64,000 bases of DNA from Labrys wisconsinensis (GTDB lineage Bacteria; Pseudomonadota; Alphaproteobacteria; Rhizobiales; Labraceae), in contig NZ_JAUSVX010000011.1 in NCBI RefSeq assembly GCF_030814995.1, positions 124,001-188,000 of the forward strand. The letters are read 5' to 3'. Of the stretch, positions 42,275 through 57,137 are shown piece by piece. The first letter of the stretch is position 1. Every line of letters begins with the position of its first letter. A model generated the notes under the pieces. That model did no database searches. It was not told where the DNA came from and saw only the letters and a list, made by a program, of their open reading frames with translations. Both the position numbers and the translations under genes were made by a program.

Positions 42275-42315
42275 GGGGTCCTCCATCGGCTTTTGCGGCA
42301 GCATCGCACCTTGGG

Positions 42316-42456: not shown

Positions 42457-43701
42457 TCAGCCGCGGCGCAGCGCCAGGCTCCAGCGATGGAGCGCCTCGA
42501 TGCCGAGCCGGACGTCTGCGACGGTGACGCTTTCGGCGGGATGATGGCTGATGCCGCCTGCGCAGCGCAGGAACAGCATGCCGATCTCGGTGATCGCGCT
42601 CACGGCGATGCCGTCATGGCCCGCGCCGCTCGCCAGGCGTGGGGCGGGCAGGCCCATGCCCGCGAGGACCCCGGCCAGAGCTTCGACGAGGCGTGGCGAG
42701 CAGGGCGTCGTCTCGGTCCGGCTGGTGACCTGCCAGGCAAGCTCGACCCTGCGGCGCCGGGCGGACGCCTGGAACTCCGCCAGGGCGGCGTCGACGAGCC
42801 TGGTGCGGACCTCGTCCTGCGCCGCGCGGATGTCGACGGAGAAGCGCACCCGGCCGGGGATGACGTTCACGGCATCGGGGGCGACCCGCAGGTGGCCGAC
42901 CGTGCCGACGGCCTCGGCGCCGGCGCAGAGGCGTTCGACCGCCAGCACGCATTCGGCGGCGGCGGCGAGCGCATCGCGCCGCAGACGCATCGGCACGGTG
43001 CCGGCGTGCCCCGCAGTGCCGTCGACGGTGACCAGCAGGCGCGTCGCCCCGGCGATGGCGGTGACGCAGCCGAGCGGAACATCCGCGTCCTCCAGCGCCG
43101 GTCCCTGCTCGATATGCAGCTCGAGATAGGCGGCCGGCGGATCCCGGCGCCGGCTGGCGGCGCCGACGCCGTCCGGATCGACGCCGAAGCTGCGCAGCGC
43201 CGTCGCAGCGTCGATGCCGTCGGCGTCGCGCCGCTCCCGCCAGTCCGGCGCCAGCGTGCCGGCCACGGCGGCGCTGCCGAGGATCGAGCCGCCGAAGCGC
43301 ACGCCCTCCTCGTCGGCGAAGCCGATCACCTCCACGGCGAGGGGCAGGCGGCGGCCCTCGCGCCGCAGCCGTTCGACCACGGCGATGCCCGCGACCACGC
43401 CGAGCGGCCCGTCATAGCGGCCGCCGTCGCGCACGGTGTCGAGATGCGAGCCGATCATCACGGCAGAGGCGCCGGCGGTCTCCGCCTCCCAGCGGCCGAC
43501 GACATTGCCGGCCGCGTCGATCCCAGCCGCCATGCCGGCCTCGCGCATCCAGGCGAGGACGCGGGCATTGGCGTCGCGCAACGCCGGCGAGAAGGCGAGG
43601 CGCGTGATCCGGCCGGGCTCGTCGGTGCAGGCCGCGAGCGCGTCGAGACGCGCCATCGCGATGTCGGCGTCGTCCCGGCTCGGCTCAGAAGCGGACGTCA
43701 C
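42457..43701 (-). CDS. M20 zinc-dependent hydrolase (N-carbamoyl-amino acid / allantoate amidohydrolase type)
   Basis: 414 residues from GTG 43701 (AAGGA upstream), overlapping the preceding gene by 17 bp. Metal ligands are in order: His in IGSHLDTV, Asp in GGRYDGPLG, Glu in GFADEEGVRFG, His in LELHIEQGP, and His in GGISHHPAE. The dimerisation insert (VDGTAGHAGTVPM) matches the hydantoin-utilisation C/allantoate amidohydrolase branch. It hydrolyses ureido amides with loss of ammonia and CO2. It is the last gene of the ureide block started upstream by the hydantoinase-type enzyme. Confidence 0.9.
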   Translation of the reverse strand: MTSASEPSRDDADIAMARLDALAACTDEPGRITRLAFSPALRDANARVLAWMREAGMAAGIDAAGNVVGRWEAETAGASAVMIGSHLDTVRDGGRYDGPLGVVAGIAVVERLRREGRRLPLAVEVIGFADEEGVRFGGSILGSAAVAGTLAPDWRERRDADGIDAATALRSFGVDPDGVGAASRRRDPPAAYLELHIEQGPALEDADVPLGCVTAIAGATRLLVTVDGTAGHAGTVPMRLRRDALAAAAECVLAVERLCAGAEAVGTVGHLRVAPDAVNVIPGRVRFSVDIRAAQDEVRTRLVDAALAEFQASARRRRVELAWQVTSRTETTPCSPRLVEALAGVLAGMGLPAPRLASGAGHDGIAVSAITEIGMLFLRCAGGISHHPAESVTVADVRLGIEALHRWSLALRRG

Positions 43702-44476
43702 GGTTGACGTCCTTGTAGAGGAGATAGGCCGAGGGGGTCCAACCCGTGGGGTAGAACAGCTGCGGACAATAGGGGCCCATCCAGATGAAGTCGCCCTGCC
43801 AGACCTCGTGCCAGTCCTGGTCGAGGAGATACATGCCCTGGCCTTCCAGCATCACCAGCCCGTGCTCGTTGATGTGGGTCTCCACATCGGGAAAATGGGC
43901 GCCTGGCGCGAAGGACAGGATGTTCATCTCCATGTCGAAGCGCATGTCGCCATGGGGCAGGAGGTGCTCCCAGGTGCGGCCCTCCGTGCCGTTGTGGTTG
44001 ACTTTCTCGACCGCGGAGCGCCGGGAGACGATCGGCTCGGGCACCGGCAGCCCGGCCGGCTCATAGGGCCGCTTCAGGCCGATCACGGCGGCCTCTTGCG
44101 GGCCGTCATTGCGCAGGGAGAAGCGGGTCTCCGGCGGGAGATAGGCAAAGCCTTCGCGGTCGAGCGGGAAGGCCGTGCCCTCGACCGTGAGCATCACCGG
44201 CCCGCCGGTGATGTAGAAGAACCGCTCCAGGCCGTCGCCGAAGGCTTCGCACGTGCCGCCGTCCGGCGCGATCTCGAGCAGGGCCTGGGCAAAGCGGGCG
44301 CCGAGCTGCGGCGCGGCCTGGAAGCGCACGATGGTCTTCTCCCAGCGCGGGAGGTAGCTGTCCATGATGCCTTCGGGCGGCATCACGGCATAGTTGCGCT
44401 TCACGACGCCGCGGGTATGGCCATAGGCGCCGGGCGGCAGGCGGCCCGGCTTCACCGGCATCGAGCGGGGATGCAT
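43685..44476 (-). CDS. (S)-ureidoglycine aminohydrolase-like bicupin protein
   Basis: 263 residues, two cupin domains. The first includes FYITGGPVMLTVEG; the second has FAPGAHFPDVETHINEHG with the metal-binding His and Glu residues, followed by EGQGMYLLDQDWHEVWQGDFIWMGPYCPQLFYPTG. Ureidoglycine aminohydrolase (allE/ylbA type) releases ammonia from ureidoglycine in allantoin breakdown using Mn. It starts at ATG 44476 after GGGAGG. It lies between RidA and the M20 hydrolase, an order consistent with ureide catabolism. Confidence 0.88.
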   Translation of the reverse strand: MHPRSMPVKPGRLPPGAYGHTRGVVKRNYAVMPPEGIMDSYLPRWEKTIVRFQAAPQLGARFAQALLEIAPDGGTCEAFGDGLERFFYITGGPVMLTVEGTAFPLDREGFAYLPPETRFSLRNDGPQEAAVIGLKRPYEPAGLPVPEPIVSRRSAVEKVNHNGTEGRTWEHLLPHGDMRFDMEMNILSFAPGAHFPDVETHINEHGLVMLEGQGMYLLDQDWHEVWQGDFIWMGPYCPQLFYPTGWTPSAYLLYKDVNRDVRF

Positions 44477-44488
44477 CGAAGACCTCCC

Positions 44489-44866
44489 TCAGAAATCGGC
44501 CGGCAGCGCCACCGTCATGATGATCTCGACGAGGTCGCCGTCGGGCATCACCGACTGCACGAAGGAGCGGACGGGGCCGCAGCCTGCGGGCATCCATTTC
44601 GCCCAGACCGCGTCGAATTCGGGCTTGCGGCCATGGTCGGTGACGATCACCTCGGCCCGCATGATCCGGGTCCGGTCGAGGCCGTGGTCGCGGAGATAGC
44701 CGTCGATGACCGCGAGCGCGTCCTCGGCCTGGCCGGGCAGGTCCAGCGTCAGGTCGCGCGCGGTGGCGACGCACCAGAGGAAGCCGCCGCCGCCGGGAAA
44801 GCGGTGGATCGCGACCTTGGACTTGGTCGGCATCTCCTCGATCGGGGTGCGGATGATGTCGGTCAT
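44489..44866 (-). CDS. RidA/YjgF-like deaminase
   Basis: 125 residues. The RidA fold is indicated by GGFLWCVATARDLTLDLPGQAEDALAVIDGYLRDHGL and by the Arg in GPVRSFVQ followed by the LVEIIMTVALP strand. RidA proteins hydrolyse reactive enamine/imine intermediates. The N-terminal part diverges from E. coli RidA, so it may have a pathway-specific imine. It is 12 bp from the aminohydrolase gene and 9 bp from the dihydropyrimidinase gene. Confidence 0.82.
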   Translation of the reverse strand: MTDIIRTPIEEMPTKSKVAIHRFPGGGGFLWCVATARDLTLDLPGQAEDALAVIDGYLRDHGLDRTRIMRAEVIVTDHGRKPEFDAVWAKWMPAGCGPVRSFVQSVMPDGDLVEIIMTVALPADF

Positions 44867-44875
44867 GATCGTTCC

Positions 44876-46327
44876 TCAGGCGAGTTGGGCGCGGGCGGCG
44901 TCGAAGCCGTTGGCGAGGCGGCCGAGCGGCCGGGCGAGGTCGTAGGGGCCGCGTGGCAGGAACCGGCCCGAGCCTTCCTCCGCCAGCAGCTTGCCCTCGC
45001 GCATGGCTGGGATGCCGCGGCGGATGGTCATCACCGGCCAGCCCGTCACCTCGCGTCCCTCATAGGGCGTGTAGTCGACGGCATGCTGCAGCAGCGCATT
45101 GGTCAGGGTGACGCGCTTGCCCGGGTCCCACAGCACGATGTCGGCATCGGCGCCCGGCGCGATGGTGCCCTTGCGCCCGCCGAGGCCGTAGATCCGCGCC
45201 GGGTTGGCGGCCGTCAGGGCGACGAAGGTGGGGAGGTCGATGCGGCCCTTGACCACGCCCTCGGAGAACAGCAGCGGCAGGCGCGAGCCGACGCCCGGCA
45301 CGCCGTTGGGGATGTCGCGGAAGGAGGCGTCCCGGCCGTGCATGTCCTTGGCATGGTGGCCGGTGGTGTTGAAGGCGCTGTGGTCGGAGGAGACGACGTC
45401 GAGCACGCCCTGGCGCATCATCTCCCACAGGCCCTCGTGGTCGGCCTCGTCGCGCGGTGCCGGGCTGCACATGGCCTTCGACCCCTCGAAGCCGGGGCGG
45501 TCCATGTCGGCGGCGGTGAGGGCGAAATACTGCGGGCAGGTCTCGCCCCAGACCTTGAGGCCGCGGCGCTTGGCCCGGGCGATCTCCTCGGCGACCTCGG
45601 CGCAGGAGACGTGGAAGACCTGGATCGGGGTGTCGACCAGCTCGGCCAGGGCGATGGCGCGGTAGGTCGTCTCGCGCTCCACCACCTTGGGCCGCGACCA
45701 GGCATGGTATTTCGGCGCGGTCAGGCCGGCGGCCAGGAGCTGCTCGGTCAGCCAGCCGATGGCGTCGTAGTTCTCGCAATGCACCGCCACCATGGCGCCC
45801 TCGCGCCGCGCGGCGGCGAGCACGCGCAGGAACTGGCGGTCGTCGAGCCGGGCGCCGTCATAGGTGAGGAAGACCTTGAGGCTGCGGATGCCGGAGGCGA
45901 CGATCGCCGGGATCTCGGCCAGCACCGCATCGGTCGGATCGGTGACGATCTGGTGGAAGCTGTAGTCGATGATCGAGCGCTCGCCCCGCCGCAGCGTCTC
46001 GGCCAGCACGTCGCGGATCGGCTCGCCCTTGAACTGGGCGACGAAGGAGATCGCCGTGGTCGTGCCGCCGGCCAGCGCCGAGCGGCTGCCGGTGACAAAG
46101 TCCTCGGCGCCATAGCCCATGCCCGGCTCGACCTGGTCGAGATGGCAATGGGTGTCGACCCCGCCCGGCATCACCAGCAGGCCGTCGGCCTCGATCGTCT
46201 GCCGGCCGGCGAGGTTTTCGCCCACGGCGGCGATGCGCCCACCGCGGATGCCGACATCGGCGCGGAAGACCTGCGTTTCCGTCACCACGGTGCCGCCGCG
46301 GATGGCGAGGTCGAAATCATCCGTCAT
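44876..46327 (-). CDS. Dihydropyrimidinase/hydantoinase
   Basis: 483 residues, amidohydrolase superfamily. Metal ligands: THCHLDQ (N-terminal HxH), the carboxylated Lys in SLKVFLTYDG, His in AVHCENYD, His in VFHVSCAEV and Asp in SSDHSAFN. The typical opening PGGVDTHCHLD and DFVTGSRSALAGGTTTAISF match dihydropyrimidinases. It opens a cyclic diamide ring, giving an N-carbamoyl acid for the M20 hydrolase. Its stop overlaps the M-strand neighbour TenA by 4 bp (46324-46327). Could alternatively be an allantoinase. Confidence 0.9.
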   Translation of the reverse strand: MTDDFDLAIRGGTVVTETQVFRADVGIRGGRIAAVGENLAGRQTIEADGLLVMPGGVDTHCHLDQVEPGMGYGAEDFVTGSRSALAGGTTTAISFVAQFKGEPIRDVLAETLRRGERSIIDYSFHQIVTDPTDAVLAEIPAIVASGIRSLKVFLTYDGARLDDRQFLRVLAAARREGAMVAVHCENYDAIGWLTEQLLAAGLTAPKYHAWSRPKVVERETTYRAIALAELVDTPIQVFHVSCAEVAEEIARAKRRGLKVWGETCPQYFALTAADMDRPGFEGSKAMCSPAPRDEADHEGLWEMMRQGVLDVVSSDHSAFNTTGHHAKDMHGRDASFRDIPNGVPGVGSRLPLLFSEGVVKGRIDLPTFVALTAANPARIYGLGGRKGTIAPGADADIVLWDPGKRVTLTNALLQHAVDYTPYEGREVTGWPVMTIRRGIPAMREGKLLAEEGSGRFLPRGPYDLARPLGRLANGFDAARAQLA

Positions 46328-46989
46328 GGCGCGGCTCCCTCGAACGGCGCCTGGTGGAAGGCGATCTCGAGCTCCAGGGCGCGCCGGAACCGGTCACCGA
46401 GACGATCTTCCTCGGCTGGATCGGCGGCGTCGAGCTGGCGGCGCAGCCAGTCGGCCTGCGCCAGGAATTCGGGTTCGGCATGCAGGTCGACCCAGCGCCT
46501 GAGGATGGGATCGCCGATCCGGCATGCGGCGGCGCGGGTGCACCAGGTGGCGTACATCCATTCGGCCGCCAGCATGATGGCGACGCCGTCGCGATAGGTG
46601 CCGTCGCGGGCGATGGCGAGCATGCCGTCCCGGAAGGCGAACACCGACGGCGGCAAGGGGCGGGCGCGGTCGGCCGCGGTGATGCCGAGCGCCGCGAAGG
46701 TGCGCTCGAAATAGCCGATCTGCTCGACCGCCAGCGCCTGCAGCACCCCGGCGAGCCAGCGCCGCTCCTCCAGTCCTGGTGCCTTGACCAGCATATGCCC
46801 GAAGATCAGCATCGCGGTCTCGACGAAATCGCATTCATAGACGAGATAGGCCTTGAAGGTGTCCGCGCTCAGGCGGTCGGCTTCGATCTCGGCGACGAAG
46901 CGATGCGCCTGCATCGCGTCCCACACGTCCTGGTTGGCGGCGCGGATGCGCTCCGACAGCGGCTTGATGTCCTTCACGTCGATGCTCAC
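46324..46989 (-). CDS. TenA_E family protein (aminopyrimidine/thiaminase-like hydrolase)
   Basis: 221 residues from GTG 46989, with GGGAGTGAG upstream. The all-helical TenA fold is seen in FKAYLVYECDFVETAM, EQIGYFERTFAALG and the C-terminal LELEIAFHQAPF Glu. In the catalytic helix the usual Cys (LLPCYWLY) is replaced by MLAAEWMY, so it is of the TenA_E type. TenA enzymes split C-N bonds of pyrimidines. It is in an operon with dihydropyrimidinase and BtpA, 5 bp after the latter, suggesting a pyrimidine-like substrate. Confidence 0.85.
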   Translation of the reverse strand: MSIDVKDIKPLSERIRAANQDVWDAMQAHRFVAEIEADRLSADTFKAYLVYECDFVETAMLIFGHMLVKAPGLEERRWLAGVLQALAVEQIGYFERTFAALGITAADRARPLPPSVFAFRDGMLAIARDGTYRDGVAIMLAAEWMYATWCTRAAACRIGDPILRRWVDLHAEPEFLAQADWLRRQLDAADPAEEDRLGDRFRRALELEIAFHQAPFEGAAP

Positions 46990-46994
46990 GCTGC

Positions 46995-47840
46995 TCACTC
47001 CCCGGACCGGATGGTCCGGACCTTGTCCATGAAGGCGGCGACCCGCCGCTGGTCGACATTGTTCCACCAGACGCCGTCATGCTTGAGCGCGCTGGCGACG
47101 ATCACGCCGTCGAGCAGCGGCAGGATGGTGGCGATGTTGTCGGGCGTCGCGCCGCTGCCGACCAGGAGCGGCAGGCCGGTCGCCGCGCGCATCGCCTCGA
47201 TCTCGTCGACCGCGGCCGCATCGCCGGTGCGCTGGCCGGTGCAGATCACGGCGTCGGCATCGAAGAACTCGACGTCGCGCACCAGCTCCGCCACCGGCCG
47301 GTCGGCGACGATGGCGTGGGCGCCGTGCTTGACATGGGCGTCGGCGAAGACGGCGACGTCCTCGGCGCCGATGGCCTTGCGATAGCGCAGCGCCGCCGCC
47401 GCCTCGCCCTCGACGATGCCCTCATTGGCGACATAGGCGTTGGCCCATTGGTTGACGCGCACGAAATTCGCCCCGGACGCCTTGGCGACGGCCAGCGCCG
47501 GCATGGCGGCGTTGGCCAGGACATTGATGCCGATGGGGACATCGACCTTCTGGCGGATGCGGTCGGTGATGACAGCCAGGCCGGTGGTGATTTCATGGCC
47601 GATCCGGTCGGGCTTCAGGAACGGGATGTCCCCGTGGTTCTCGATGATCAGGCCGTCGACGCCGCCATCGACATAGGACATTGCATCGGATATTGCAGTT
47701 GAAACAGTATTCTTGAAGTCATTGTCCTGGCATCGTGGCGTTCCAGGCATGGGCGGACAGTGAACAACGCCGATGATGACTTGATTTTTGCCAAATAATC
47801 GCTTGATAATGCTTGTCGATTTGTGCGATATCGGGGCCAA
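46995..47840 (-). CDS. BtpA/SgcQ family (COG0434) TIM-barrel protein
   Basis: 281 residues from TTG 47840, chosen because AAGGAGG lies seven bases upstream; a longer frame has no ribosome site. GVVHCPPMPGTPR is the family's N-terminal motif, followed by YVDGGVDGLIIENHGDIPF and GINVLANAAMPALAVAKASGANFVRVNQW. The C-terminal GSGATPDNIATILPLLDGVIVASALK is a phosphate-binding turn of TIM barrels. BtpA is named for a role in photosystem I biogenesis, but SgcQ-like members sit in sugar clusters. Its function here is unproven; a phosphoribosyl-type substrate fits the adjacent kinase. Confidence 0.85.
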   Translation of the reverse strand: MAPISHKSTSIIKRLFGKNQVIIGVVHCPPMPGTPRCQDNDFKNTVSTAISDAMSYVDGGVDGLIIENHGDIPFLKPDRIGHEITTGLAVITDRIRQKVDVPIGINVLANAAMPALAVAKASGANFVRVNQWANAYVANEGIVEGEAAAALRYRKAIGAEDVAVFADAHVKHGAHAIVADRPVAELVRDVEFFDADAVICTGQRTGDAAAVDEIEAMRAATGLPLLVGSGATPDNIATILPLLDGVIVASALKHDGVWWNNVDQRRVAAFMDKVRTIRSGE

Positions 47841-47865
47841 GAGCTTGCCTCCTTGAGGGATTTGA

Positions 47866-48759
47866 ATGTTTCTGGTTCTGGGAAACGCGACGGTCGACGA
47901 GTCGATGACCGTCGAGGCATGGCCGTCGCCGGGCCAGACGGTGGTGGTCGGCCCGCCACGGCGCGATCTCGGCGGCAAGGGCGCCAACCAGGCGCTGGTG
48001 CTCGGCCGGACCGGCGCGCCGGTCCGCTTCGTCGCGGCGATCGGCCGGGATGCCGAGGGCGACTGGATCGCCGCCCGCCTGGCGGCGGAGGGGCTGCCCG
48101 AAAGCGACCTGCTGCGCGTCGAGGCGGCGACGGACCGCTCGATGATCTTCGTCAACGGGGCGGGCGAGAATGCCATCGCCTCCACCACGGCCGCGGCCTG
48201 CTCGATCGAGCCTGCCATGGCCGCCGCCTGCGTCGCCCGGCTCGGGCCCGGCGACGGGCTGCTGATGCAGGGCAACCTGACGCTCGCGGCGACGCGGGCC
48301 GCTTTTGCCGCGGCCCGGCAGACGGGCGTCCGCACGGTGTTCAATCCCTCGCCGGTCCAGCCGGGCTTCGCCGATCTCTTCGCGCTGGTCGACCTGCTCG
48401 TCCTCAACGAGGGCGAGGCGGCGGCCTTCGGCGGCGCCGGCGCGCCGGAAGAGGCGGCGCAGGCCCTGCGTCGGGCTGGTGCCGGCACCGTGGTGCTGAC
48501 GCTGGGTGGGCGCGGCGCCGTGCTGGCCGATGATGCCGGCGCCGACCACGTGCCGGCGCGGCCGGTGCCGGTGGTCGATACGACCGGGGCGGGCGACACG
48601 TTCATGGGCGTGCTGGCCGCGGCCGTCCTCCACCGCGGCCTGCCGCTGCGCGCCGCCGTGGCGGCGGCCGGCGCCGCGGCGGCCCTGACGGTGCAGCGCC
48701 AGGGCACGGTGTCGGCCTTCCCGAGCGGCGAGGAGATCGCGGGCCTGCTGCCGGGCTGA
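47866..48759 (+). CDS. PfkB family sugar kinase (ribokinase-like)
   Basis: 297 residues. Motif 1 RRDLGGKGANQALVLGRTGA near residue 35 and motif 2 DTTGAGDTFMGVLAAA near residue 240 contain the catalytic Asp. The Lys/Asn contacts in LLVLNEGEAAAF and TLGGRGAVL fit ribokinases. It phosphorylates a sugar or nucleoside with ATP. It is divergent from the BtpA gene with only 25 bp between start codons, so they must share a very compact control region. The ribose-type importer lies at 50-53 kb. Confidence 0.9.
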   Translation: MFLVLGNATVDESMTVEAWPSPGQTVVVGPPRRDLGGKGANQALVLGRTGAPVRFVAAIGRDAEGDWIAARLAAEGLPESDLLRVEAATDRSMIFVNGAGENAIASTTAAACSIEPAMAAACVARLGPGDGLLMQGNLTLAATRAAFAAARQTGVRTVFNPSPVQPGFADLFALVDLLVLNEGEAAAFGGAGAPEEAAQALRRAGAGTVVLTLGGRGAVLADDAGADHVPARPVPVVDTTGAGDTFMGVLAAAVLHRGLPLRAAVAAAGAAAALTVQRQGTVSAFPSGEEIAGLLPG

Positions 48760-48885
48760 TGGGACCGGAGGCGGCGACGGGAGCCGGTAGCGGGGGCTCG
48801 TTCGCGAACAAATGCTTCAGACGATGTCCGAGCATAGCGGCAGAGCGAGATGCGGCCGCCGTTGAAGAGGGCGCGACGCTGGTTT

Positions 48886-48994
48886 TTCCCCTCCCCCTTG
48901 TGGGGAGGGGCTAGGGGTGGGGGTCGTCGGCGTAGGGCGCGCGCTATCCTGGTGGACCCCCACCCCTTACCCCTCCCCACAAGGGGGAGGGGAA
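48886..48994. repeat. C-rich inverted repeat element, copy 2
   Basis: Begins TTCCCCTCCCCCTTGTGGGG and GGGGCTAGGGGTGGGGGTCGT; ends GACCCCCACCCC and CACAAGGGGGAGGGGAA. Shares its arms and order with 15497-15642 but has a shorter centre. It occupies much of the 295-bp gap between the kinase and the convergent phosphotriesterase-family gene. I see no other feature there. Confidence 0.85.
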
Positions 48995-49054
48995 TGGCTG
49001 GCGTCGCGCTCGACGTGGATGGTCCCGAACAGGCTTTCGGCATGAGAGAGGGCC

Positions 49055-50119
49055 TCACGCCGGCGCCGAGAAGACGCGGCGCGGATTGTCGACCATCAAA
49101 GCCCGGATCTCGGCGTCGCTCACCCCATGGCGCTTCAGGCGCGGCAGGAAATGGCGCTGGATATAGGCGTAGCCGAAGCCGCCATAGCGGGTGAGCATCA
49201 TCTTCAGGAACACGTCCTGCGACAGGACCAACTGGCCGCCGAAGCCGGCATCGATCAGCCCCTTGATGGCGCGGGCGTTTTCCTCCTCGGACGGACATTG
49301 CACGCCCTGGTCGGCATACCAGAAGTCCATGCCCACCATGTCATATTCGAGGATGGCGCCGCGGCGGGCGAGCGCGAACTGGTAGTCGGTGTCGAACCAG
49401 GACGGGTTCAGGTGGCAGAGGACGGTGTGGCCGAGGTCGCCGCCCTCGTCCGCGACGATGTCGAGCACCCGGTGGGCGTGACGGAACCAGCCGGGAAGAT
49501 GCACCATCAGCGGCAGGCCGGTGCGCCTTTGCGCCGCGGCGGCGCCGCGCAGGGACTTTTCCTCGTCCGGCGTGAAGTCCGAGGAGACGCCGATCTCGCC
49601 GATCAGGCCGATACGGATGCCGCTGTCGCCGACGCCGTCCAGCGCCTCGCGCACGATCTCGTCGGCGATGTCGCGGGCGCTCATCGCCGCGACCTCGGGG
49701 GGATGCGAGCTCTGGAGGTAATAGCCGGCGCCCATCACGATCTGCAGGCCCGTCGCCCGCGAAATGCGCGCCAAGGCTTCGGGGTTGCGACCGATGCCGC
49801 GGCAGGTCGGGTCGACCACGGTGCGCCCGCCCAGGGCGGCGACGGGCTTCAGCTCGGCGATCGCCAGGGCCTCGTCGTCGAGGGCGCAATTGTGCCGGTT
49901 GGCGAAAGGGTCCATCCGCAGTTCGCCGAGGATCTCGATCGAGACCGGGCCGGTGCCGAGATAGGCCCGCTCCGGCTGCTTCGGCTCGTTCCACCAGCAG
50001 CGGCAATCGTTGAGGATGTGCTCGTGCATCAGCGTCACGCCGAGGGAGTCGGCCGAAATCGGCCCCAGCACGGTCATCGCCTTGCCGGAGCCGATATGGG
50101 TTTCAGAGAGTTCGGACAT
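49055..50119 (-). CDS. Phosphotriesterase family amidohydrolase/lactonase
   Basis: 354 residues. Binuclear metal site: MHEHI (HxH, residues ~31-34), Glu in IGLIGEIGVSSD in place of the carboxylated Lys of classical phosphotriesterase, His in MVHLPGW, His in LCHLNPSW and Asp in LSQDVFLK. Glu in that position is seen in several PTE-like lactonases and sugar-related members. It is the last gene of the LacI/importer operon (gap 10 bp). Probably opens a lactone or hydrolyses an ester or cyclic phosphodiester; substrate unknown. Confidence 0.88.
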   Translation of the reverse strand: MSELSETHIGSGKAMTVLGPISADSLGVTLMHEHILNDCRCWWNEPKQPERAYLGTGPVSIEILGELRMDPFANRHNCALDDEALAIAELKPVAALGGRTVVDPTCRGIGRNPEALARISRATGLQIVMGAGYYLQSSHPPEVAAMSARDIADEIVREALDGVGDSGIRIGLIGEIGVSSDFTPDEEKSLRGAAAAQRRTGLPLMVHLPGWFRHAHRVLDIVADEGGDLGHTVLCHLNPSWFDTDYQFALARRGAILEYDMVGMDFWYADQGVQCPSEEENARAIKGLIDAGFGGQLVLSQDVFLKMMLTRYGGFGYAYIQRHFLPRLKRHGVSDAEIRALMVDNPRRVFSAPA

Positions 50120-50128
50120 GGCTGATCC

Positions 50129-51124
50129 TCAGCTCCGGCGCCGCACGGTGCCGACATGGTCGAAGATGCGGGTGTTGAGCCAGATGGCGGTCAGGATGAT
50201 GGCGCCGGTGACGATCTGGGTGAAGAAGGCGTCGATATGCGCCAGGATCAGGCCGTTGCTGATCACCGAGATGGTGAGCGCGCCGAGCACCGTGCCGACG
50301 ATGGTGCCGCGCCCGCCGGCCAGCGAGGTGCCCCCGAGCACCACGGCGGCGATCACGTCGAGCTCCGTGCCGACGGCGGCGTTGGAGGAGCCGGAGCCGA
50401 GCCGCGCTGCGACCACCAGGGCGGCAAGGGCCGAGGCGACGCCGCTCCAGACATAGACCGAGGCGACGACCCGCTGGGCCGGCATGCCGACGCGGCGCGC
50501 CGCCTCGGCATTGGCGCCGACCGCGCAGACGCGCCGGCCGTAGAGGGTGGTGTTCAGCACGACATAGCCGATCACGGCGACGGCGAGGCCGAGGATGGCC
50601 GGATTGGGGATGCCGAAGAGGGTGCCGCGGCCGATCGACAGGAACAGGCTCGGCGGGATCAGGATCGAGAAGCCGCCGGTGAGGACGAGGGCCACGCCGC
50701 GGATGGCGGAGAGGCCGGCGAGCGTGACGATGAAGGCCGGGATCTTCTGGTAGGCGATGAAGAAGCCCTGGAACAGGCCGATGGCCGCGCCGAGGGCGAG
50801 CATGAGGACGCAGACCAGCGGCCAGTCCCAGCCGGCGCGCAGCAGCAGAGCCGCGGCGGCGTTGACCAGGGCGATGATCGAGCCGACGGAGAGGTCGATG
50901 CCGCCCGTGGTGATGACGAAGGTCATGGCCACCGCCACGATCAGCGTCGGCGCCGCCTGGCGCAGCAGGTTGAGGAGGTTGCCCGTCGACAGGAACACGT
51001 CGTTGAGCGCCGTGAACAGGGCGCAGCAGGCGATGAGGAACACCGCGATCGACAGGACATGGGCATGCGTCTGGAAGAAGTCGCGCAGCCTGGAGCCCTG
51101 CTGGCGCTCGGTATAGGCGGTCAT
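50129..51124 (-). CDS. ABC transporter permease, ribose (RbsC) type
   Basis: 331 residues. ATG 51124 overlaps the ATPase stop by four bases (ATGA). Eight to ten helices follow (VLSIAVFLIACCALFTAL, VTTGGIDLSVGS etc.). FVITTGGIDLSVGSI and VGANAEAARRVGMPAQR are the hallmark segments of the BPD_transp_2 sugar permease family. It forms the channel for the binding protein at 51915. Confidence 0.9.
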   Translation of the reverse strand: MTAYTERQQGSRLRDFFQTHAHVLSIAVFLIACCALFTALNDVFLSTGNLLNLLRQAAPTLIVAVAMTFVITTGGIDLSVGSIIALVNAAAALLLRAGWDWPLVCVLMLALGAAIGLFQGFFIAYQKIPAFIVTLAGLSAIRGVALVLTGGFSILIPPSLFLSIGRGTLFGIPNPAILGLAVAVIGYVVLNTTLYGRRVCAVGANAEAARRVGMPAQRVVASVYVWSGVASALAALVVAARLGSGSSNAAVGTELDVIAAVVLGGTSLAGGRGTIVGTVLGALTISVISNGLILAHIDAFFTQIVTGAIILTAIWLNTRIFDHVGTVRRRS

Positions 51125-51918
51125 GAGCGAAGCCCCTCTCCGACGATCAGGCGGACGATGTCCTCCAGGCTGGTCTCCTGGATGGCGCGCTCGGCCACCT
51201 TGATGCCCTCGTACATCACGGCGATGCGGTCGCAGACGCGGAACAGGTCCTGCAGGCGATGGGTGATCAGCACCACGGCGACGCCTTCGGCCTTGAGGCG
51301 GCCGATCAGGGCCAGCACCGCCTCGACCTCGGCGACGGCCAGCGCCGAGGTCGGCTCGTCGAGGATCAGCACGCGCGGATTGAACGAGGCCGACCGCGCG
51401 ATGGCGATCGATTGGCGCTGGCCGCCGGAGAGCTGCGCCACCTTGACGGCGACGTTGGGGATGCGAATCTCGAGCCGCTGCAGCATCTGGCGGGCACCGT
51501 GCTGCATCGCCGCCTTGTCGAGGAAGGGGCCGCGCCGGAGCTCCCGGCCGAGATAGAGATTGCCGGCGACGTCGATCGTGTCGCACAGGCTGAGGTCCTG
51601 GTAGACCATCTCGACGCCGCGCTCGCGCGCCTCGGCCGGCCCGGCATAGCGGACCTCCTTGCCGTCGAGCTCGATCGTGCCCTCGTCGGCGATATAGGTG
51701 CCGGCGAGGATCTTGGTGAAGGTCGACTTGCCGGCGGCATTGTCGCCGACGAGGCCGAGGCATTCGCCGGACCAGAGGTCGAGGTCGACCCCGCGCAAGG
51801 CCTGGTTGGAGCCGAAGGTCTTGCGGATGCCGCGCACGCGCATGCGCGGCTCGCGCCCGCCCCGGACCGCCGGAGCGGAAGCGGCCGGAGCCGCTCCCGT
51901 CATGGCGCCCGTCGTCAC
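51121..51918 (-). CDS. ABC transporter ATPase, single-domain (FrcA/RbsA-like)
   Basis: 265 residues. Walker A GDNAAGKST (unusual Asn-Ala in place of Gly-Ala-Gly), Q-loop MVYQDLSLCD, signature LSGGQRQSIAIA, Walker B LILDEPTSALAV, H-loop LITHRLQD. Ribose-type transporters usually have a fused double ATPase (~500 residues); this is a single copy, as in FrcA. It overlaps its neighbours by 4 bp on both sides. Confidence 0.9.
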   Translation of the reverse strand: MTTGAMTGAAPAASAPAVRGGREPRMRVRGIRKTFGSNQALRGVDLDLWSGECLGLVGDNAAGKSTFTKILAGTYIADEGTIELDGKEVRYAGPAEARERGVEMVYQDLSLCDTIDVAGNLYLGRELRRGPFLDKAAMQHGARQMLQRLEIRIPNVAVKVAQLSGGQRQSIAIARSASFNPRVLILDEPTSALAVAEVEAVLALIGRLKAEGVAVVLITHRLQDLFRVCDRIAVMYEGIKVAERAIQETSLEDIVRLIVGEGLRS

Positions 51919-52850
51919 TTGAACGCCGCCCGGAACTGGTCGACGTTCTTGGAGGTGACGATGGTCACCGGCACCTTGATGGCCTTGTCGACCTTGCCGC
52001 CGCTCGCCAGCGTGCCGAGCGCCTCGATCGCCTTCTGGCCTTCCTGCTCGGGGTCCTGCTGCACCACGCCGACGAGGTAGCCGGCATCGATGGCGGCTAC
52101 CGCCTGGGCGCTGAGGTCCCAGCCGAAGATCTTGACCTTGTCGGTGCGGCCCTGGCTCTGCGCCGCGGCGATGGCGCCGACGAGGGCGGGCTCGCCGGTG
52201 GCGTAGATCGTCTGCATGTCGGGGTTGCCGGTGAGCAGGTTCTCGCCTGCCGACAGCGCCTGGTCCTGGATGTTGCGGCCATCGACGACACCGACCGTGG
52301 TGACGCCGCCGGCGGCCTTGATGACGTCGTCGAAGCCCTTCTGGCGGGTGTTCTGCAGGTCGGAATTGAGGGCGCCGACGACGCCGAGCGTCGCCTTGCC
52401 GCCGAGATTGGCCTTGACGTAATCCATGTAGAACTCGCCGATCAGCTTGCCGGCGGCATAATTGTCGACCGAGATCTGCGAGGCCTGCGGCCCCTCGGGC
52501 AGGATGCCGTCGACGGCGACGACCGGGATGCCCGCTGCGACCGCCGAGCGGACCGCCGGCATGATGCCGTTCTGGTCGACCGAGACGATGACGATGCCGT
52601 CGACCTTCTGCTGGGTATAGGTGTCGAAGGCGTTGTCCTGGGCCTGCGCCGAATTGTTGGCGTCGAAGACCAGCAGCTTGTCGCCGGCGGCGTCGGCGGC
52701 CTTCTGGGCGCCGCGGGTGATGTCGGTGAAGAACGAGACCTGCTGGTTGTACTGGATCAGGGCGAAGGTCTTGCCCTTGGCGTCGGCTGATGTGGCGAGG
52801 CCGGCGACCAGGATGGCGGCGGCCGTGAGCTTGAGCATCGTGCGGTTCAT
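51915..52850 (-). CDS. Periplasmic sugar-binding protein, RbsB type
   Basis: 311 residues with a Sec signal MNRTMLKLTAAAILVAGLAT ending SADA-KGK. The Peripla_BP_4 fold is shown by YNQQVSFFTDITRGAQKAADAAGDKLLVFDANN, DGIVIVSVD, VVAVDGILP and GVVQQDPEQEGQKAIEAL. Ligand class is ribose, nucleoside or similar. It starts on the LacI stop (ATGA overlap), so one mRNA carries regulator, importer and hydrolase. Confidence 0.9.
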   Translation of the reverse strand: MNRTMLKLTAAAILVAGLATSADAKGKTFALIQYNQQVSFFTDITRGAQKAADAAGDKLLVFDANNSAQAQDNAFDTYTQQKVDGIVIVSVDQNGIMPAVRSAVAAGIPVVAVDGILPEGPQASQISVDNYAAGKLIGEFYMDYVKANLGGKATLGVVGALNSDLQNTRQKGFDDVIKAAGGVTTVGVVDGRNIQDQALSAGENLLTGNPDMQTIYATGEPALVGAIAAAQSQGRTDKVKIFGWDLSAQAVAAIDAGYLVGVVQQDPEQEGQKAIEALGTLASGGKVDKAIKVPVTIVTSKNVDQFRAAFK

Positions 52851-53920
52851 GGCGGTGGAGTCCCCTTTTGTTTGGCTTGGCGTGGTTCTTTTCTTGTTGT
52901 TGCGTCTTGCGGCGGCCGGGCGACGGATTCCCGCAGGATCAGTTCGACCGGCAGATGCTCGACGACCGTGTCGACCGCCTCGCCCTCGAGGGCGCGGACG
53001 AGCAGGTCGACGGCGCGCCGGCCCATGGCGTCGACGGGCTGGCGGATGGAGGTCAGCGGCGGATCGAACAGCACGAACGGGGCGATGTCGTCGAAGCCGA
53101 TGACCGACAGGCGCTGCGGGATGGGCAGGCGCTCGCGCCGGAAGATCTCCAGGGCGCCGATCATGATCTGGTCGCTGGAGACGAGCAGGGCGGTGGCCGC
53201 GCTTCTCGCCAGCAGGCGCTCGGCGCAGGCACGGCCGTGCTCCGGCGAATAGTCGCCGCAATAGACGTCGCTGACCTCGGCGGCCGCGCCCGCCTCGGCG
53301 ATGGCCCGGCGCACGCCGGCGAGACGGGCCTGGGTGCTGCGCATGGCCTCGGGGCCGCCGAAGAAGGCGATGCGGCGATGGCCCATCTCGACGAGGTGGC
53401 GGCCGGCGAGGAAGCCGCCCTGCTCGTTGTCGCTGAACACCTTGGAGCCGCGGACCCCGGCGACGTCCTCGTCGAGGATGACGATGCGCCGGCTGGAGGT
53501 GTTGATCGGCTCCTTCAGCGTGCCGTCATCGGGATGGTTGGTGACGAAGATGATGCCGTCGACCGCGGTGCGGCTCAGCCGGGCCAGGTATTCACGCTCG
53601 CGGTCCTGGGTGTTGAGCGAGGCGCACAGCGTCAGGCCGTAGCCGCGCCGGGCCGCCTCGCGCTCGACCGCCGCGGCCAGCCGGGCGAAATAGGGGTTGG
53701 TAATGTCGGGGACCACCAGGCCGAGCGTGTCGGAGCGGCCGCGGCTGAGGCTGCGCGCATGCGGGTTGGGCTGGTAGCCGAGCGCCTCGATGGCCTGGCG
53801 CACACGCGCCGCGGTCGCCTCGGGAAGCTGGATGCTGTTGTTGAGGTAGCGCGAGACGGTCGCGACCGACACGCTCGCCGAGCGCGCCACATCCGACAGC
53901 CGTGCAACCCGCTTTTCCAT
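52847..53920 (-). CDS. LacI family transcriptional regulator
   Basis: 357 residues. The N-terminal helix-turn-helix and hinge are SDVARSASVSVATVSRYLNNS and RYLNN..PNPHARSL, and the Peripla_BP-like core runs from residue ~60 (TLGLVVPDITNPYFARL). Its stop overlaps the importer's binding protein, so it is the first gene of its operon. Two related dyads lie in the shared promoter with the divergent amidase operon. It would respond to the imported sugar-like ligand, which is unknown. Confidence 0.9.
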   Translation of the reverse strand: MEKRVARLSDVARSASVSVATVSRYLNNSIQLPEATAARVRQAIEALGYQPNPHARSLSRGRSDTLGLVVPDITNPYFARLAAAVEREAARRGYGLTLCASLNTQDREREYLARLSRTAVDGIIFVTNHPDDGTLKEPINTSSRRIVILDEDVAGVRGSKVFSDNEQGGFLAGRHLVEMGHRRIAFFGGPEAMRSTQARLAGVRRAIAEAGAAAEVSDVYCGDYSPEHGRACAERLLARSAATALLVSSDQIMIGALEIFRRERLPIPQRLSVIGFDDIAPFVLFDPPLTSIRQPVDAMGRRAVDLLVRALEGEAVDTVVEHLPVELILRESVARPPQDATTRKEPRQAKQKGTPPP

Positions 53921-53923
53921 CGT

Positions 53924-54113
53924 GTAACCGCTTTACCAATCTGCGACGAGACTATCGCGAGTCCGAGGGCATGCAAGCGAATAATTTGGGCAAGCCTGCC
54001 AGCGAGTTGGCACACAACAGACTGGAAATGCTCGATTCTTGGGCGATGATGGCAACGAAACCGATTGGCATCGCGATTGCTCGTTATCCCGTTGCTGTTG
54101 TAAAAGGCTTTAC
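53924..54113. promoter_or_regulatory. Two LacI-type operators in divergent promoter
   Basis: GTAACCGCTTTAC (53924-53936) directly precedes the LacI start (53920). GTAAAAGGCTTTAC (54100-54113) lies 38 bp before the AtzH-like gene. Both share GTAA and GCTTTACC around a C/G centre, close to the family consensus. Their 176-bp spacing could allow looping. Binding by the LacI protein is inferred. Confidence 0.55.
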
Positions 54114-54151
54114 CGAATGGGCGGAAAGCCCGTCGCAAGCCGGAGGTGAGG

Positions 54152-54547
54152 ATGATGGAGACCAACCGTCCCGAGGTGTTGGCCGAGGTCTGGGCCGCCT
54201 ATCGCCGCTATGAGGACGCGCTGCTCGCGGCCGACGCGGCGACGCTCGACGACTTGTTCTGGCGCGACGGGCGGACGATTCGCTACGGCGCGGACGAGAT
54301 CCTCTACGGCCACCCCGCCATCGCCGCCTTCAACGCCCGCCGCCGGCTCAATCCCGAGCGCGTGCTCGTCGACACGGTGGTGACCAGCTACGGCGCCGAC
54401 TTCGCCACCGCCTCGACCCTGTTCACCGATGTGCCGGACGGCAGGATCGGCCGGCAGATGCAGAGCTGGGTCCGGATGCCGGACGGCTGGCGCGTCGTCG
54501 CCGCCCATGTCAGCGTCATCGACAGGCCCAAGGAGATCGGTCGATGA
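54152..54547 (+). CDS. AtzH/HpxZ-like protein (DUF3225)
   Basis: 131 residues. Typical DUF3225 (SnoaL-like cone) features: YEDALLAADAATLDDLFWRDGRTIRYG, AIAAFNARRR and SWVRMPDGWRVVAAHVSVI. Members such as AtzH and HpxZ sit beside amidase-signature enzymes (AtzE, HpxW) in cyanuric acid and hypoxanthine/oxalurate pathways. ATG 54152 is preferred with GGAGG five bases upstream. It overlaps the amidase by 4 bp, which follows the same pattern. Confidence 0.87.
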   Translation: MMETNRPEVLAEVWAAYRRYEDALLAADAATLDDLFWRDGRTIRYGADEILYGHPAIAAFNARRRLNPERVLVDTVVTSYGADFATASTLFTDVPDGRIGRQMQSWVRMPDGWRVVAAHVSVIDRPKEIGR

Positions 54548-55746
54548 GTTCCTGTCGTCCGGACGGCCTTCCCGGGCGGGAGGATTTCGGCGCCTTCGTG
54601 GCCGGGCCGCGCCTGTCGATCGATGGCGCCTCCGCCGGGCCGCTCGCGGGCCTGACCTTCGCCGCCAAGGACCTCTTCGACGTCGCCGGCCACGTCACCG
54701 GCTGCGGCAGCCCGGACTGGGCCGCCAGCCACGGGCCAGCGCAGCGGTCCGCCGCCGCCGTGGACCTCCTGCTCGCTGCCGGAGCGCGGCTCGCCGGCAA
54801 GACCGTGACCGACGAGATCTCGCTCGGGTTGCTCGGACGCAACCGGCATGTCGGCACGCCGGTGAACCCGCGGGCGCCCGATCGCTATCCCGGCGGCTCC
54901 TCCAGCGGTTCGGCCGCCGCGGTGGCGGCCGGCCTGGTGGCGCTGGCGCTCGGCTCCGACAGCGGCGGCTCGATGCGGGTGCCGGCGAGCTTCTGCGGCC
55001 TCTACGGCATCCGCCCGACCCATGGCGCGGTGCCGACCGCCGGGCTGATGACGCAGTCGCCCTCCTTCGACACGGCCGGCTTCTTCGCCGCCGATGCCGA
55101 GATCTTCGCCCGCGTCGGTGCCGTGCTGCTGCCGCAGGGGCCGGAGGAGGGGATCGAGGAGGTGCTCATCGCCGAGGACGCCTTCGCCTGCGCCGACGCG
55201 CCGGTGCGCGGGGCGCTGCGGCCGGCGGTGGCCGCGGTGGCGCAGCATGTCGGCCACAGCCGCTCGATCATCCTGGCGGAGGAGGGGCTGCGGGCCTGGA
55301 ACGGCCACCATGTCCACCTGCAGCATCCTGAATTCGCGCGCACCTTCGGGCCCTGGGTCGATGCGGTCGACCCGCGCCTGTCCTATGACGTGGCGGCGAC
55401 GATCGCCGTGGCGCGGCGGCTGCCGGAGGCGCCGCAGCAGGCGGCCCTGGCCTTCCGGCCGCTGGTCCGCGCCCGGGTCGAGGCGCTGCTCGAGGGCCGG
55501 CGCGTGCTGTGCCTGCCGACCACGCCGATCCTGCCGCCCCGCCGCGACCTCTCGCTCGGCGAGACCGCAGCCGCCTGCGAGCGCATCGTCGACCTCACCT
55601 GCATCGCCGGCCTGACCGGTCTGCCGCAGGTCAGCCTGCCGCTCGGCGCGGCCGAGGGCCTGCCCGTCGGCCTCTCCCTGATCGGCTGGCGCGGTTCGGA
55701 CGGGGCCCTGGTCGAACTCGCCCGCCGTATGGGGAGGCCGGCATGA
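54544..55746 (+). CDS. Amidase (amidase signature family), short form
   Basis: 400 residues with triad Lys42 (FAAKDLFD), Ser119 (PGGSSSGS) and Ser143 (GSDSGGSMRVPAS). At 400 residues it is shorter than the other amidases (455-468), like AMI1-type enzymes. It is coupled to the AtzH-like gene (4-bp overlap) and to the next amidase (4-bp overlap at 55743). It may act on a ureide-type or nitrile-derived amide; the LacI sites upstream suggest induction with the importer. Confidence 0.9.
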   Translation: MSSCRPDGLPGREDFGAFVAGPRLSIDGASAGPLAGLTFAAKDLFDVAGHVTGCGSPDWAASHGPAQRSAAAVDLLLAAGARLAGKTVTDEISLGLLGRNRHVGTPVNPRAPDRYPGGSSSGSAAAVAAGLVALALGSDSGGSMRVPASFCGLYGIRPTHGAVPTAGLMTQSPSFDTAGFFAADAEIFARVGAVLLPQGPEEGIEEVLIAEDAFACADAPVRGALRPAVAAVAQHVGHSRSIILAEEGLRAWNGHHVHLQHPEFARTFGPWVDAVDPRLSYDVAATIAVARRLPEAPQQAALAFRPLVRARVEALLEGRRVLCLPTTPILPPRRDLSLGETAAACERIVDLTCIAGLTGLPQVSLPLGAAEGLPVGLSLIGWRGSDGALVELARRMGRPA

Positions 55747-57137
55747 ACGCGGCCGATTATGCGCGCTACGACGCGGTCGGCCTCGCCGATCTCGTGGCAC
55801 GGGGCGCGGTGTCGCCTGGCGAGGTGCTCGACGCCGCCCTGGCGGCACTCGACGCCCACAATCCCGTCCTGAACGCGGTCGTCATGCGGCACGAGGACGA
55901 GGCGCGGGCGGCGATCGCCGCCGGCCTGCCGGCGGGGCGTTTCCGCGGCGTGCCGTTCCTGCTGAAGGACCTCGATCTCGCGCTGGCGGGAACGCCGCTG
56001 ACGCAGGGCAGCGAGCTCTTCCGGGGCTTCGTGCCCGATCGGGATTCGACGCTGGTCGCCCGCTACAAGGCGGCCGGCCTGGTGATCTTCGGCAAGACCA
56101 ATTCGGCCGAGCTCGGCCTCAGCTTCACCACCGAGCCTGCCGCCTACGGCCCGACCCGCCATCCGCGTGACCCGGCCCTGTCGCCGGGCGGCTCCAGCGG
56201 CGGCGCGGCGGCAGCGGTCGCGTCCGGCATGGTGCCGATGGCGCACGGCACCGACGGCGGCGGCTCGATCCGCCAGCCGGCCGCGCTCACCGGCCTGTTC
56301 GGGCTGAAGCCGAGCCGCGGCCGCACCCCGGCGGGGCCGGAGGCGAGCGAGGTGTTCTTCGGCCTCTCCGTCTCGCATGCGCTGACGCGCAGCGTGCGCG
56401 ACAGCGCCGCCCTGCTCGACGCGACTTGCGGGCACGAGCCGGGCGCGCTGCACTGGCTGCCGGACCCTGCCGTGCCGTTCGAGCGCTGCGCCGAACGCGA
56501 TCCGCCGCCGCTGCGGATCGCGGTGCAGCGACGGCCGTTCAACGGCGCGCCGGTCGACCCGCTGTGCCTCTCGGCGCTCGACGAGGCGGCGCGACTTTGC
56601 GAGAGCTTCGGCCATCGGCTGGAGGAGGATGCGCCCGACCTCGCCGGCATCGCAGCCCATGCCGGCTTGCTCTCCGGTGCCTTCACCGCCGAGCGGATCC
56701 TGGGGTTCGCGGCCATGCGCGGGATCGCCGATCCCCTCGCGCTGATCGAGCCCGCCCATGCCGACCATGTCCGCGCCGCCATGGCGCGGCCGGCGCAGGA
56801 TGTGGTTGCGGCGCTCGCAGCCGTCCGGACCGTAGAACGGCGTTACGCCCGCTTCTTCGAGCGCCACGACATCCTGATGTCGCCGGTCTGCGCCACGCCC
56901 GTATTGCCGCTCGGCTGGCTCTCCGGTCCCGACGGCGAGGAGCGCAGCCGGCGCGCCGCCGCCCATGCGCCGTTCACGGCGCCGTGCAACGCCGCCGGCA
57001 TTCCGGCGATGAGCGTGCCCTTCGCCCAGGGCGGCCGGCTGGTCGGCGTGCAGTTCGCCGCCGCGCTCGGCCGCGAGGACCTGCTCTTCGGCCTCGCCGG
57101 GGCGATCGAGCGGGCGAGGCCGTGGTGGGCGCCCTGA
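55743..57137 (+). CDS. Amidase (amidase signature family)
   Basis: 464 residues with triad Lys75 (FLLKDLDL), Ser151 (PGGSSGGA) and Ser175 (GTDGGGSIRQPAA). A second amidase next to 54544-55746, whose stop it overlaps by 4 bp. The two differ in length and in the segment around the substrate pocket (AELGLSFTTEPAAYG), so they likely act on successive or different amides. It is the last gene of the operon; 283 bp of non-coding DNA follow. Confidence 0.9.
   Translation: MNAADYARYDAVGLADLVARGAVSPGEVLDAALAALDAHNPVLNAVVMRHEDEARAAIAAGLPAGRFRGVPFLLKDLDLALAGTPLTQGSELFRGFVPDRDSTLVARYKAAGLVIFGKTNSAELGLSFTTEPAAYGPTRHPRDPALSPGGSSGGAAAAVASGMVPMAHGTDGGGSIRQPAALTGLFGLKPSRGRTPAGPEASEVFFGLSVSHALTRSVRDSAALLDATCGHEPGALHWLPDPAVPFERCAERDPPPLRIAVQRRPFNGAPVDPLCLSALDEAARLCESFGHRLEEDAPDLAGIAAHAGLLSGAFTAERILGFAAMRGIADPLALIEPAHADHVRAAMARPAQDVVAALAAVRTVERRYARFFERHDILMSPVCATPVLPLGWLSGPDGEERSRRAAAHAPFTAPCNAAGIPAMSVPFAQGGRLVGVQFAAALGREDLLFGLAGAIERARPWWAP

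Follow-up and report, generated by a model that had tools for sequence, protein, structure and literature searches.

Why should a bacterium keep an importer of the ribose type and a sugar kinase side by side with enzymes of ureide and amide hydrolysis? The question is raised by a locus of Labrys wisconsinensis, lying in a 64 kb stretch (the window, to whose first base all positions below refer) of a genome of 8,926,997 bases in 55 contigs. An earlier note on this DNA had seen in the block at 46995–57137 one possible pathway, in which an N-ribosylated amide would be taken up, phosphorylated, split and hydrolysed to ammonia. Family scans recover all ten of its genes, with families and coordinates as it had them, but its list left out a TenA-like gene, and the whole unit is larger, running from 42457 to 57137. 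The genes reported here are present as located, and their grouping goes beyond chance. In order, the unit encodes a LacI-family regulator, a substrate-binding protein (SBP), an ABC ATPase, a permease, a phosphotriesterase (PTE)-family protein, a PfkB kinase (on the opposite strand, between the PTE and BtpA genes), a BtpA-family protein, a TenA-like protein, a hydantoinase, a RidA-like protein, a ureidoglycine aminohydrolase and an allantoate-type amidohydrolase; an AtzH/HpxZ-like protein and two amidases are encoded divergently. The reading that we favour, and to which we give about an even chance, is that the genes make up a single catabolic unit under the control of LacI, directed at a ribose-type N-glycoside with a nitrogen-rich aglycone, either nucleoside-like or ureide-like. 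Gene content, conserved order, the operator, the kinase clade and the altered pockets are there in the sequences themselves.

We begin with the gap between the two divergent strands. The regulator gene (52847–53920, minus strand; Pfam LacI and Peripla_BP_3; best NCBIfam match RbsR at 234.5 bits, missing the cut-off of 382) has, 4–16 bp ahead of its start codon, the operator O1, of the form GTAA-N5-TTAC (GTAACCGCTTTAC, 53924–53936), while 38 bp ahead of atzH lies O2, GTAAA-N4-TTTAC (GTAAAAGGCTTTAC, 54100–54113). Their spacing differs by one base, O1 being the shorter. Each is the sole match to its own pattern in the window (in shuffled windows either pattern averages 0.01 matches), and the O2 pattern has a single occurrence in the whole genome, O2 itself; as a control, the pattern read backwards likewise gives one place. 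Aligned with the corresponding gap of Kaistia, the region displays two conserved sites, including O2, and the 5-base spacing of O1 is found again in Kaistia (L014) and in G101 and G277, two genomes from a single further family (loci L146/L147); in all of these lacI is also the conserved first gene. Across 98 loci (1.9 Mb) the O2 pattern occurs 34 times: 27 occurrences are at most 400 bp upstream of lacI, four fall between lacI and the SBP gene (L023, L029, L032, L085), two precede an ATPase gene in L099, and the remaining one is at the edge of L029, ahead of another ATPase gene. In L064 and L087 the pattern stands between lacI and a divergent kinase gene. A site of looser spacing (GTAA-N4 to N7-TTAC) precedes lacI in 31 of the 54 loci that have this gene. 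Because the operator of the regulator's family sits before atzH, shared control of amidases and importer can be predicted, and the atzH-ami1-ami2 operon is very probably under the importer's regulator. The shared LacI-type operators proposed earlier are two real sites, one base apart in spacing, and a lack of co-regulation of the amidases, which the earlier note had set against its own proposal, is made unlikely by what these sites predict. An unusual layout is seen in Paraburkholderia rhizosphaerae (L086), where the core of the system consists of two divergent halves, and a pair of identical operators lies in the stretch that separates lacI from pte.

What, then, would the importer carry? The SBP (51915–52850, minus strand; Peripla_BP_4) has a ribose-type fold and misses the RbsB equivalog cut-off, with 105.7 of 337 bits. 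Sixteen positions, which we take to be those contacting ribose in RbsB, were compared: six are kept (F15, F16, D89, R141, D215 and Q235), and N13, R90, F164, N190 and F214 are among those changed, in the window and in all 76 of 76 relatives. At these positions the binding pocket is different from that of RbsB. The AF2 model of the protein (pLDDT 90.7) finds its closest structure in PDB 5hsg, the SBP of a core cluster from Klebsiella; the title of that entry, as displayed, names no ligand. The permease (50129–51124, minus strand) belongs to BPD_transp_2. As for the ATPase (51121–51918, minus strand; ABC_tran), it had been described as a two-domain RbsA, which does not hold: the protein is single-domain, with 265 residues, and covers the first half only of RbsA-type models. 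Plain uptake of free ribose, considered as the whole story, was rejected: the RbsB, ribokinase and RbsR cut-offs are all missed and the RbsB pocket is not kept.

The kinase (47866–48759, plus strand) is a member of the PfkB family by its domain, its catalytic Asp, its GGKG motif and its sugar-binding Asp/Asn; it reaches 209.7 bits with the ribokinase model TIGR02152, below the cut-off of 299.65. It retains D16, GGKG, N46 and D255 of RbsK. Glu143 of RbsK is replaced by Asn, here and in all 57 of 57 aligned relatives. As a sign of a sugar substituted at C1 we gave this change little weight: the kinase of PDB 3i3y, presumably a ribose complex, has Asn too, and the Salmonella kinase RikA accepts ribose. 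A maximum-likelihood tree built from 78 kinases unites those of the four ureide-type units (window, Kaistia, G101 and G277) and two that are linked elsewhere to an atzH-ami1-ami2 trio (in G101 and G292) in a clade of six rows, with support 100/98. The start codons of the kinase and btpA genes face each other across 25 bp (47841–47865), an arrangement found in 25 fetched loci with 20–126 bp between matched stretches. On the other side, where the kinase and PTE genes converge (48871–49009), lies a 55-nt inverted repeat with arms 87% complementary and a 29-nt spacer; its 23-base core is found 41 times in the genome, which makes it a dispersed palindromic repeat. The same tree places the core-locus kinase of L074, labelled Mycobacterium sp. 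KBS0706, among kinases of Inquilinus limosus; this assembly is probably mislabelled or contaminated.

Is the assembly of genes kept elsewhere? All 15 genes recur in Kaistia hirudinis (L014) with order and orientation unchanged (ami2- ami1- atzH- lacI+ sbp+ atp+ perm+ pte+ kin- btpA+ tenA+ dhp+ ridA+ ugah+ aah+), with 66–90% protein identity, and G101 and G277 keep 12 genes in order from lacI to aah, at 57–88% identity to the window. Beyond these, 111 loci were confirmed when contigs were scanned with the PTE-family protein. In the best 80 of these 111, some of which are truncated at contig ends, we find, no more than 8.5 kb from the PTE gene, the permease in 78, the SBP in 76, the ATPase in 75, a GATase1-like protein (PF07090) in 72, the kinase in 65, BtpA in 59, LacI in 45, TenA in 33 and the M20 hydrolase in 25. 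Loci with this core are mostly from Alphaproteobacteria, and also from Klebsiella and Pantoea. Of four other genomes of the genus of the window, three have the core, including the kinase, BtpA and M20 genes; in the 20 kb read of the fourth (L093), only importer, PTE and GATase genes are present. The GATase-like gene is absent from all four ureide-type units, over the 15 to 21 kb examined. What we have, then, is a variant form of a widespread core, in which ureide enzymes are present and this protein is missing.

The most serious rival, which we nevertheless deem unlikely, would separate what the favoured reading joins: an unrelated sugar-uptake operon would have as its neighbour the usual allantoin (purine ureide) pathway, with the hydantoinase as allantoinase and, after it, allantoate amidohydrolase, ureidoglycine aminohydrolase and amidases of the oxalurate type. 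Three enzymes of the ureide block pass curated cut-offs, a point that counts for the favoured reading: the hydantoinase/dihydropyrimidinase (44876–46327, minus strand; TIGR02033, 499 bits for 393.25), the (S)-ureidoglycine aminohydrolase (43685–44476, minus strand; TIGR03214, 300.1 for 200) and the M20 enzyme of allantoate amidohydrolase type (42457–43701, minus strand; NF006775, 515.8 for 479). The second of these is the only copy over its cut-off in the genome, as this rival would have it; moreover a hydroxyisourate hydrolase is encoded on another contig, beside genes that resemble, by eye, subunits of xanthine dehydrogenase, and HpxZ/AtzH accompanies allantoate amidohydrolase in enterobacterial clusters (PMC6219798, as far as its available text goes; PMC4016543, likewise in part, gives background on ureides). 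Yet the hydantoinase misses the allantoinase model TIGR03178, with 260.2 of 357.85 bits, and a better candidate, just below that cut-off at 356.9 bits, is found elsewhere in the genome. The RidA-like gene (44489–44866, minus strand; Ribonuc_L-PSP) has relatives (E <= 1e-15) in only three of the 297 Hyphomicrobiales genomes sampled, namely that of the window, G101 and G277, and always within the unit. In addition, BtpA and TenA, which in other bacteria are members of the sugar-type core, head the ureide strand in the four genomes, and the importer's operator precedes the amidases.

These amidases belong to a trio. The AtzH-like/HpxZ protein (54152–54547, plus strand) passes NF033625, the HpxZ model of oxalurate catabolism, with 156.8 bits (cut-off 135). 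Compared with AtzH, the 1,3-dicarboxyurea enzyme, it keeps in alignment the equivalents of Tyr22, Arg46, Arg66, Arg73 and Gln106/108, while two arginines of the pocket are replaced, with Asn for Arg63 and Asp for Arg96 (numbering offset by 3, as deduced from a cloning primer in PMC6219798). Amidase 1 (54544–55746, plus strand), of the amidase signature family, passes NF006169 (466.6 bits for 391); amidase 2 (55743–57137, plus strand), of the same family, has 277 bits with Pfam Amidase and is above no cut-off among the 25 NCBIfam matches listed out of 26. A cyanuric acid operon was considered and set aside, both amidases missing the AtzE model TIGR02715 (178 and 189.1 of 425.75 bits). The atzH-ami1-ami2 trio is present in all four genomes that have the ureide-type unit, linked to it in the window and in Kaistia, and located elsewhere in G101 and G277, which are of one genus. 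Directly before it stands a PfkB kinase gene in G101 and in G292. No second kinase is seen beside the trio of G277, near which genes are found for a LacI regulator, sugar ABC components and an ADP-ribosylglycohydrolase, of a family that cuts N-glycosidic bonds.

A second rival, improbable in our view, makes the locus a sugar-lactone pathway: the PTE-family protein would be a (phospho)lactonase, the kinase would act on a free sugar or sugar acid, and the nitrogen genes would serve something else. The earlier note had indeed called this protein a lactonase. Encoded at 49055–50119 (minus strand; PTE, 217 bits), with PDB 3k2g as nearest structure, it is a metal-dependent hydrolase with a metal site of the Glu type: H32, H34, E175, H207, H236 and D302 are invariant in 85 of 85 sequences, and we take them to be the metal ligands (HxH, bridging Glu, two His, Asp). 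Its match to the NCBIfam phospho-furanose lactonase model, which speaks for this rival, is weak: 54.1 bits for a cut-off of 630, and lactonase had to be dropped as its assigned function; the organophosphate hydrolase cut-off is missed as well (79.2 of 500 bits). Also in favour is RikA, encoded near a PTE-family gene, which phosphorylates free ribose (PMC13432705, from the portion accessible). Against it, the core has enzymes of C-N bonds, TenA and the M20 hydrolase, in the proportions given above, and there is no lactone-making dehydrogenase among the proteins of the unit.

Two proteins of the core remain to be placed. BtpA (46995–47840, minus strand, TTG start; 236.8 bits) passes the BtpA/SgcQ subfamily model TIGR00259 with 229.3 bits for 153.4, and its GSG motif is invariant in 58 of 58 sequences. 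Its AF2 model (pLDDT 85.4) is a TIM barrel. Among the 50 Foldseek matches listed, barrels that bind phosphate, HisF, TrpA, ThiE, HisAp (HisA/PriA) and TrpF, come first, CutC and aldolases further down, a likeness that is at the level of the fold only, since TM-scores by query length are 0.49–0.62. A photosystem I BtpA was discarded (NF045918, 208.6 of 400 bits). The 5' part of the gene (window 47600–47899) has a G+C content of 0.49–0.53 in 200-base steps, as against 0.71–0.78 around it, and looks as if it differed in origin or constraint. The same genome encodes a second BtpA, 48% identical (L098, G000 contig C2, about 350 kb), which adjoins genes for an importer of the ribose type and for a protein resembling the kinase (30% identical). 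The TenA-like protein (46324–46989, minus strand; TENA_THI-4) is apparently of the TenA_E type: in its AAEWMY motif, Glu, present in 20 of 21 rows, stands at what we take to be the position of the active-site Cys of thiaminase II, and it misses the thiaminase II model TIGR04306 with 41.8 of 130 bits.

Coming back to the reading of a single unit for an N-glycoside, we infer what class of substrate is used, which reactions take place and in which order, as follows. The ABC importer would bring in the N-glycoside, and the kinase would phosphorylate the 5'-hydroxyl of its sugar, either on the glycoside or once the sugar is released. The phosphorylated form of the sugar compound would be the substrate of BtpA, a barrel of the HisA/TrpF/ThiE kind. 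The PTE-family hydrolase and the TenA_E-type enzyme may open or de-aminate the aglycone, and the resulting ureide would be taken to small acids and ammonia by the hydantoinase, the M20 amidohydrolase, the ureidoglycine aminohydrolase and the RidA-like protein. AtzH/HpxZ and the two amidases, induced jointly with the importer, would finish amide products. The one-pathway claim made at the outset is supported in part: the idea of one functional unit stands, with the order kept in Kaistia, the same set without linked amidases in G101 and G277, the joining of kinase and trio in G101 and G292 and a pocket that is not that of RbsB, whereas the lactonase role is not borne out, and an N-ribosylated amide as ligand, like phosphorylation ahead of base release, is a conjecture.

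Several observations weigh against this reading, beginning with the fact that all function is here deduced from sequence. The unit has no nucleoside hydrolase or phosphorylase, these families being absent from the Pfam matches of 20 scanned proteins; core loci were not scanned for glycosidase families. The kinase of a similar set, RikA, accepts free ribose (PMC13432705, in part). No site of the type GTAA-N4 to N7-TTAC is found before lacI in 23 of 54 lacI loci, and no operator at the kinase/btpA junction, in the window or in any of the 25 such divergent junctions. Hydantoinase, RidA-like protein, ureidoglycine enzyme, AtzH and amidases are found in 1 of 80 core loci, that of Kaistia, which counts against a simple story. 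Among the 297 Hyphomicrobiales genomes, relatives of amidase 1 (E <= 1e-90) are present in 22 and those of the PTE-family protein (E <= 1e-100) in 24, and both occur together in only three, two of them of one genus; at most six first-look candidates per genome were scored in these searches, so that some relatives may have been missed. G292 has the kinase-atzH-ami1-ami2 arrangement and no PTE relative at E <= 1e-100.

A more daring view, to which we grant a small chance, is that the unit is devoted to scavenging ribonucleosides that are damaged or have an opened ring, such as the formamidopyrimidine, hydantoin or allantoin ribosides that oxidation or alkylation of RNA would leave. The opened base would then be the target of the hydantoinase-ureidoglycine enzymes and of the TenA_E-type and M20 enzymes, which have relatives acting on N-formyl pyrimidines, with kinase and BtpA recovering ribose. 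The widespread core might handle ring-opened pyrimidine ribosides, and the ureide variant those of the hydantoin type. Least probable of all is a salvage of the thiamin pyrimidine, in which TenA_E and the M20 enzyme would strip formyl and amino groups from base-degraded thiamin: TenA_E does bind N-formyl aminomethylpyrimidine (FAMP) with high affinity and YlmB, presumably of the M20 family, is the best studied FAMP-deformylating enzyme (PMC10470507, in the part available), and the kinase matches Phos_pyr_kin below cut-off (20.8 of 27 bits), but that kinase has kept the sugar residues of ribokinase, the importer is of the ribose and not of the thiamin type, the thiaminase II cut-off is missed, and hydantoinase, ureidoglycine enzyme and amidases would have no place.

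Outside the unit, a glycosidase of family GH3 (38530–40896) adjoins the ureide-block side, as does a MocR-like aminotransferase domain (41045–42304) without a match to a DNA-binding family; neither has a match in the Kaistia locus. Further away, a large proton-pumping membrane subunit (61855–63855) is hydrogenase 4 subunit B by its model (864.2 bits, cut-off 667).

If the N-glycoside reading is right, what would be gained? The ureide variant narrows the possible aglycone of the substrate of the core, because enzymes of known ureide and amide chemistry are present and the GATase-like gene is absent. It yields a short list of ligands for the binding protein, a relative of which is structurally known (5hsg). 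BtpA, and TenA-like proteins beyond thiamin salvage, might thereby be assigned a function, and the identity of the substrate would explain a gene family found in many bacteria. The open-access literature, most subscription papers being outside our search, yielded no description of the BtpA/TenA core or of its ureide variant, and no substrate for a core of importer, PTE, GATase-like protein, PfkB kinase, BtpA and TenA or M20 enzyme.

Among known systems, the clusters of Klebsiella and Pantoea (L155, L099) share with the window LacI, SBP, ATPase, permease, PTE, kinase, BtpA, TenA and M20 hydrolase; they also carry the GATase-like gene and, unlike the window, give within the scanned stretches no match to hydantoinase, RidA-like protein, ureidoglycine enzyme, AtzH or amidases. 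Between the BtpA and SBP genes of the Klebsiella record, at the kinase-like stretch, the annotation places an IS1. The nearest described set is that of Salmonella, rikA-STM3548-STM3549-STM3550, with genes for a PfkB kinase of demonstrated ribose kinase activity, a glutamine-amidotransferase-like protein, a phosphotriesterase-family protein and a transporter, which its authors, in June 2026, considered as a possible pathway for a substrate still unknown (PMC13432705); its transporter is of the DMT type and not an ABC importer, and BtpA, TenA, ureide and amidase genes are not named in the part of that paper available. In the Rhizobium core, the GATase-like protein has matches to PDB 2gk3, presumably STM3548, and to 3soz, labelled STM1381. 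In the hpx and atzG-atzE-atzH clusters, HpxZ/AtzH adjoins an amidase, with allantoate amidohydrolase close by (PMC6219798, in part), whereas the amidases of the window are not AtzE by model and their trio is joined to a sugar importer, a kinase and BtpA. Finally, the yegTUVW operon of E. coli combines a putative nucleoside transporter, an ADP-ribosylglycohydrolase and a sugar kinase, under a GntR regulator and with a transporter of another family, and has been linked to ADP-glucose and glycogen (PMC10819704, from the text accessible).

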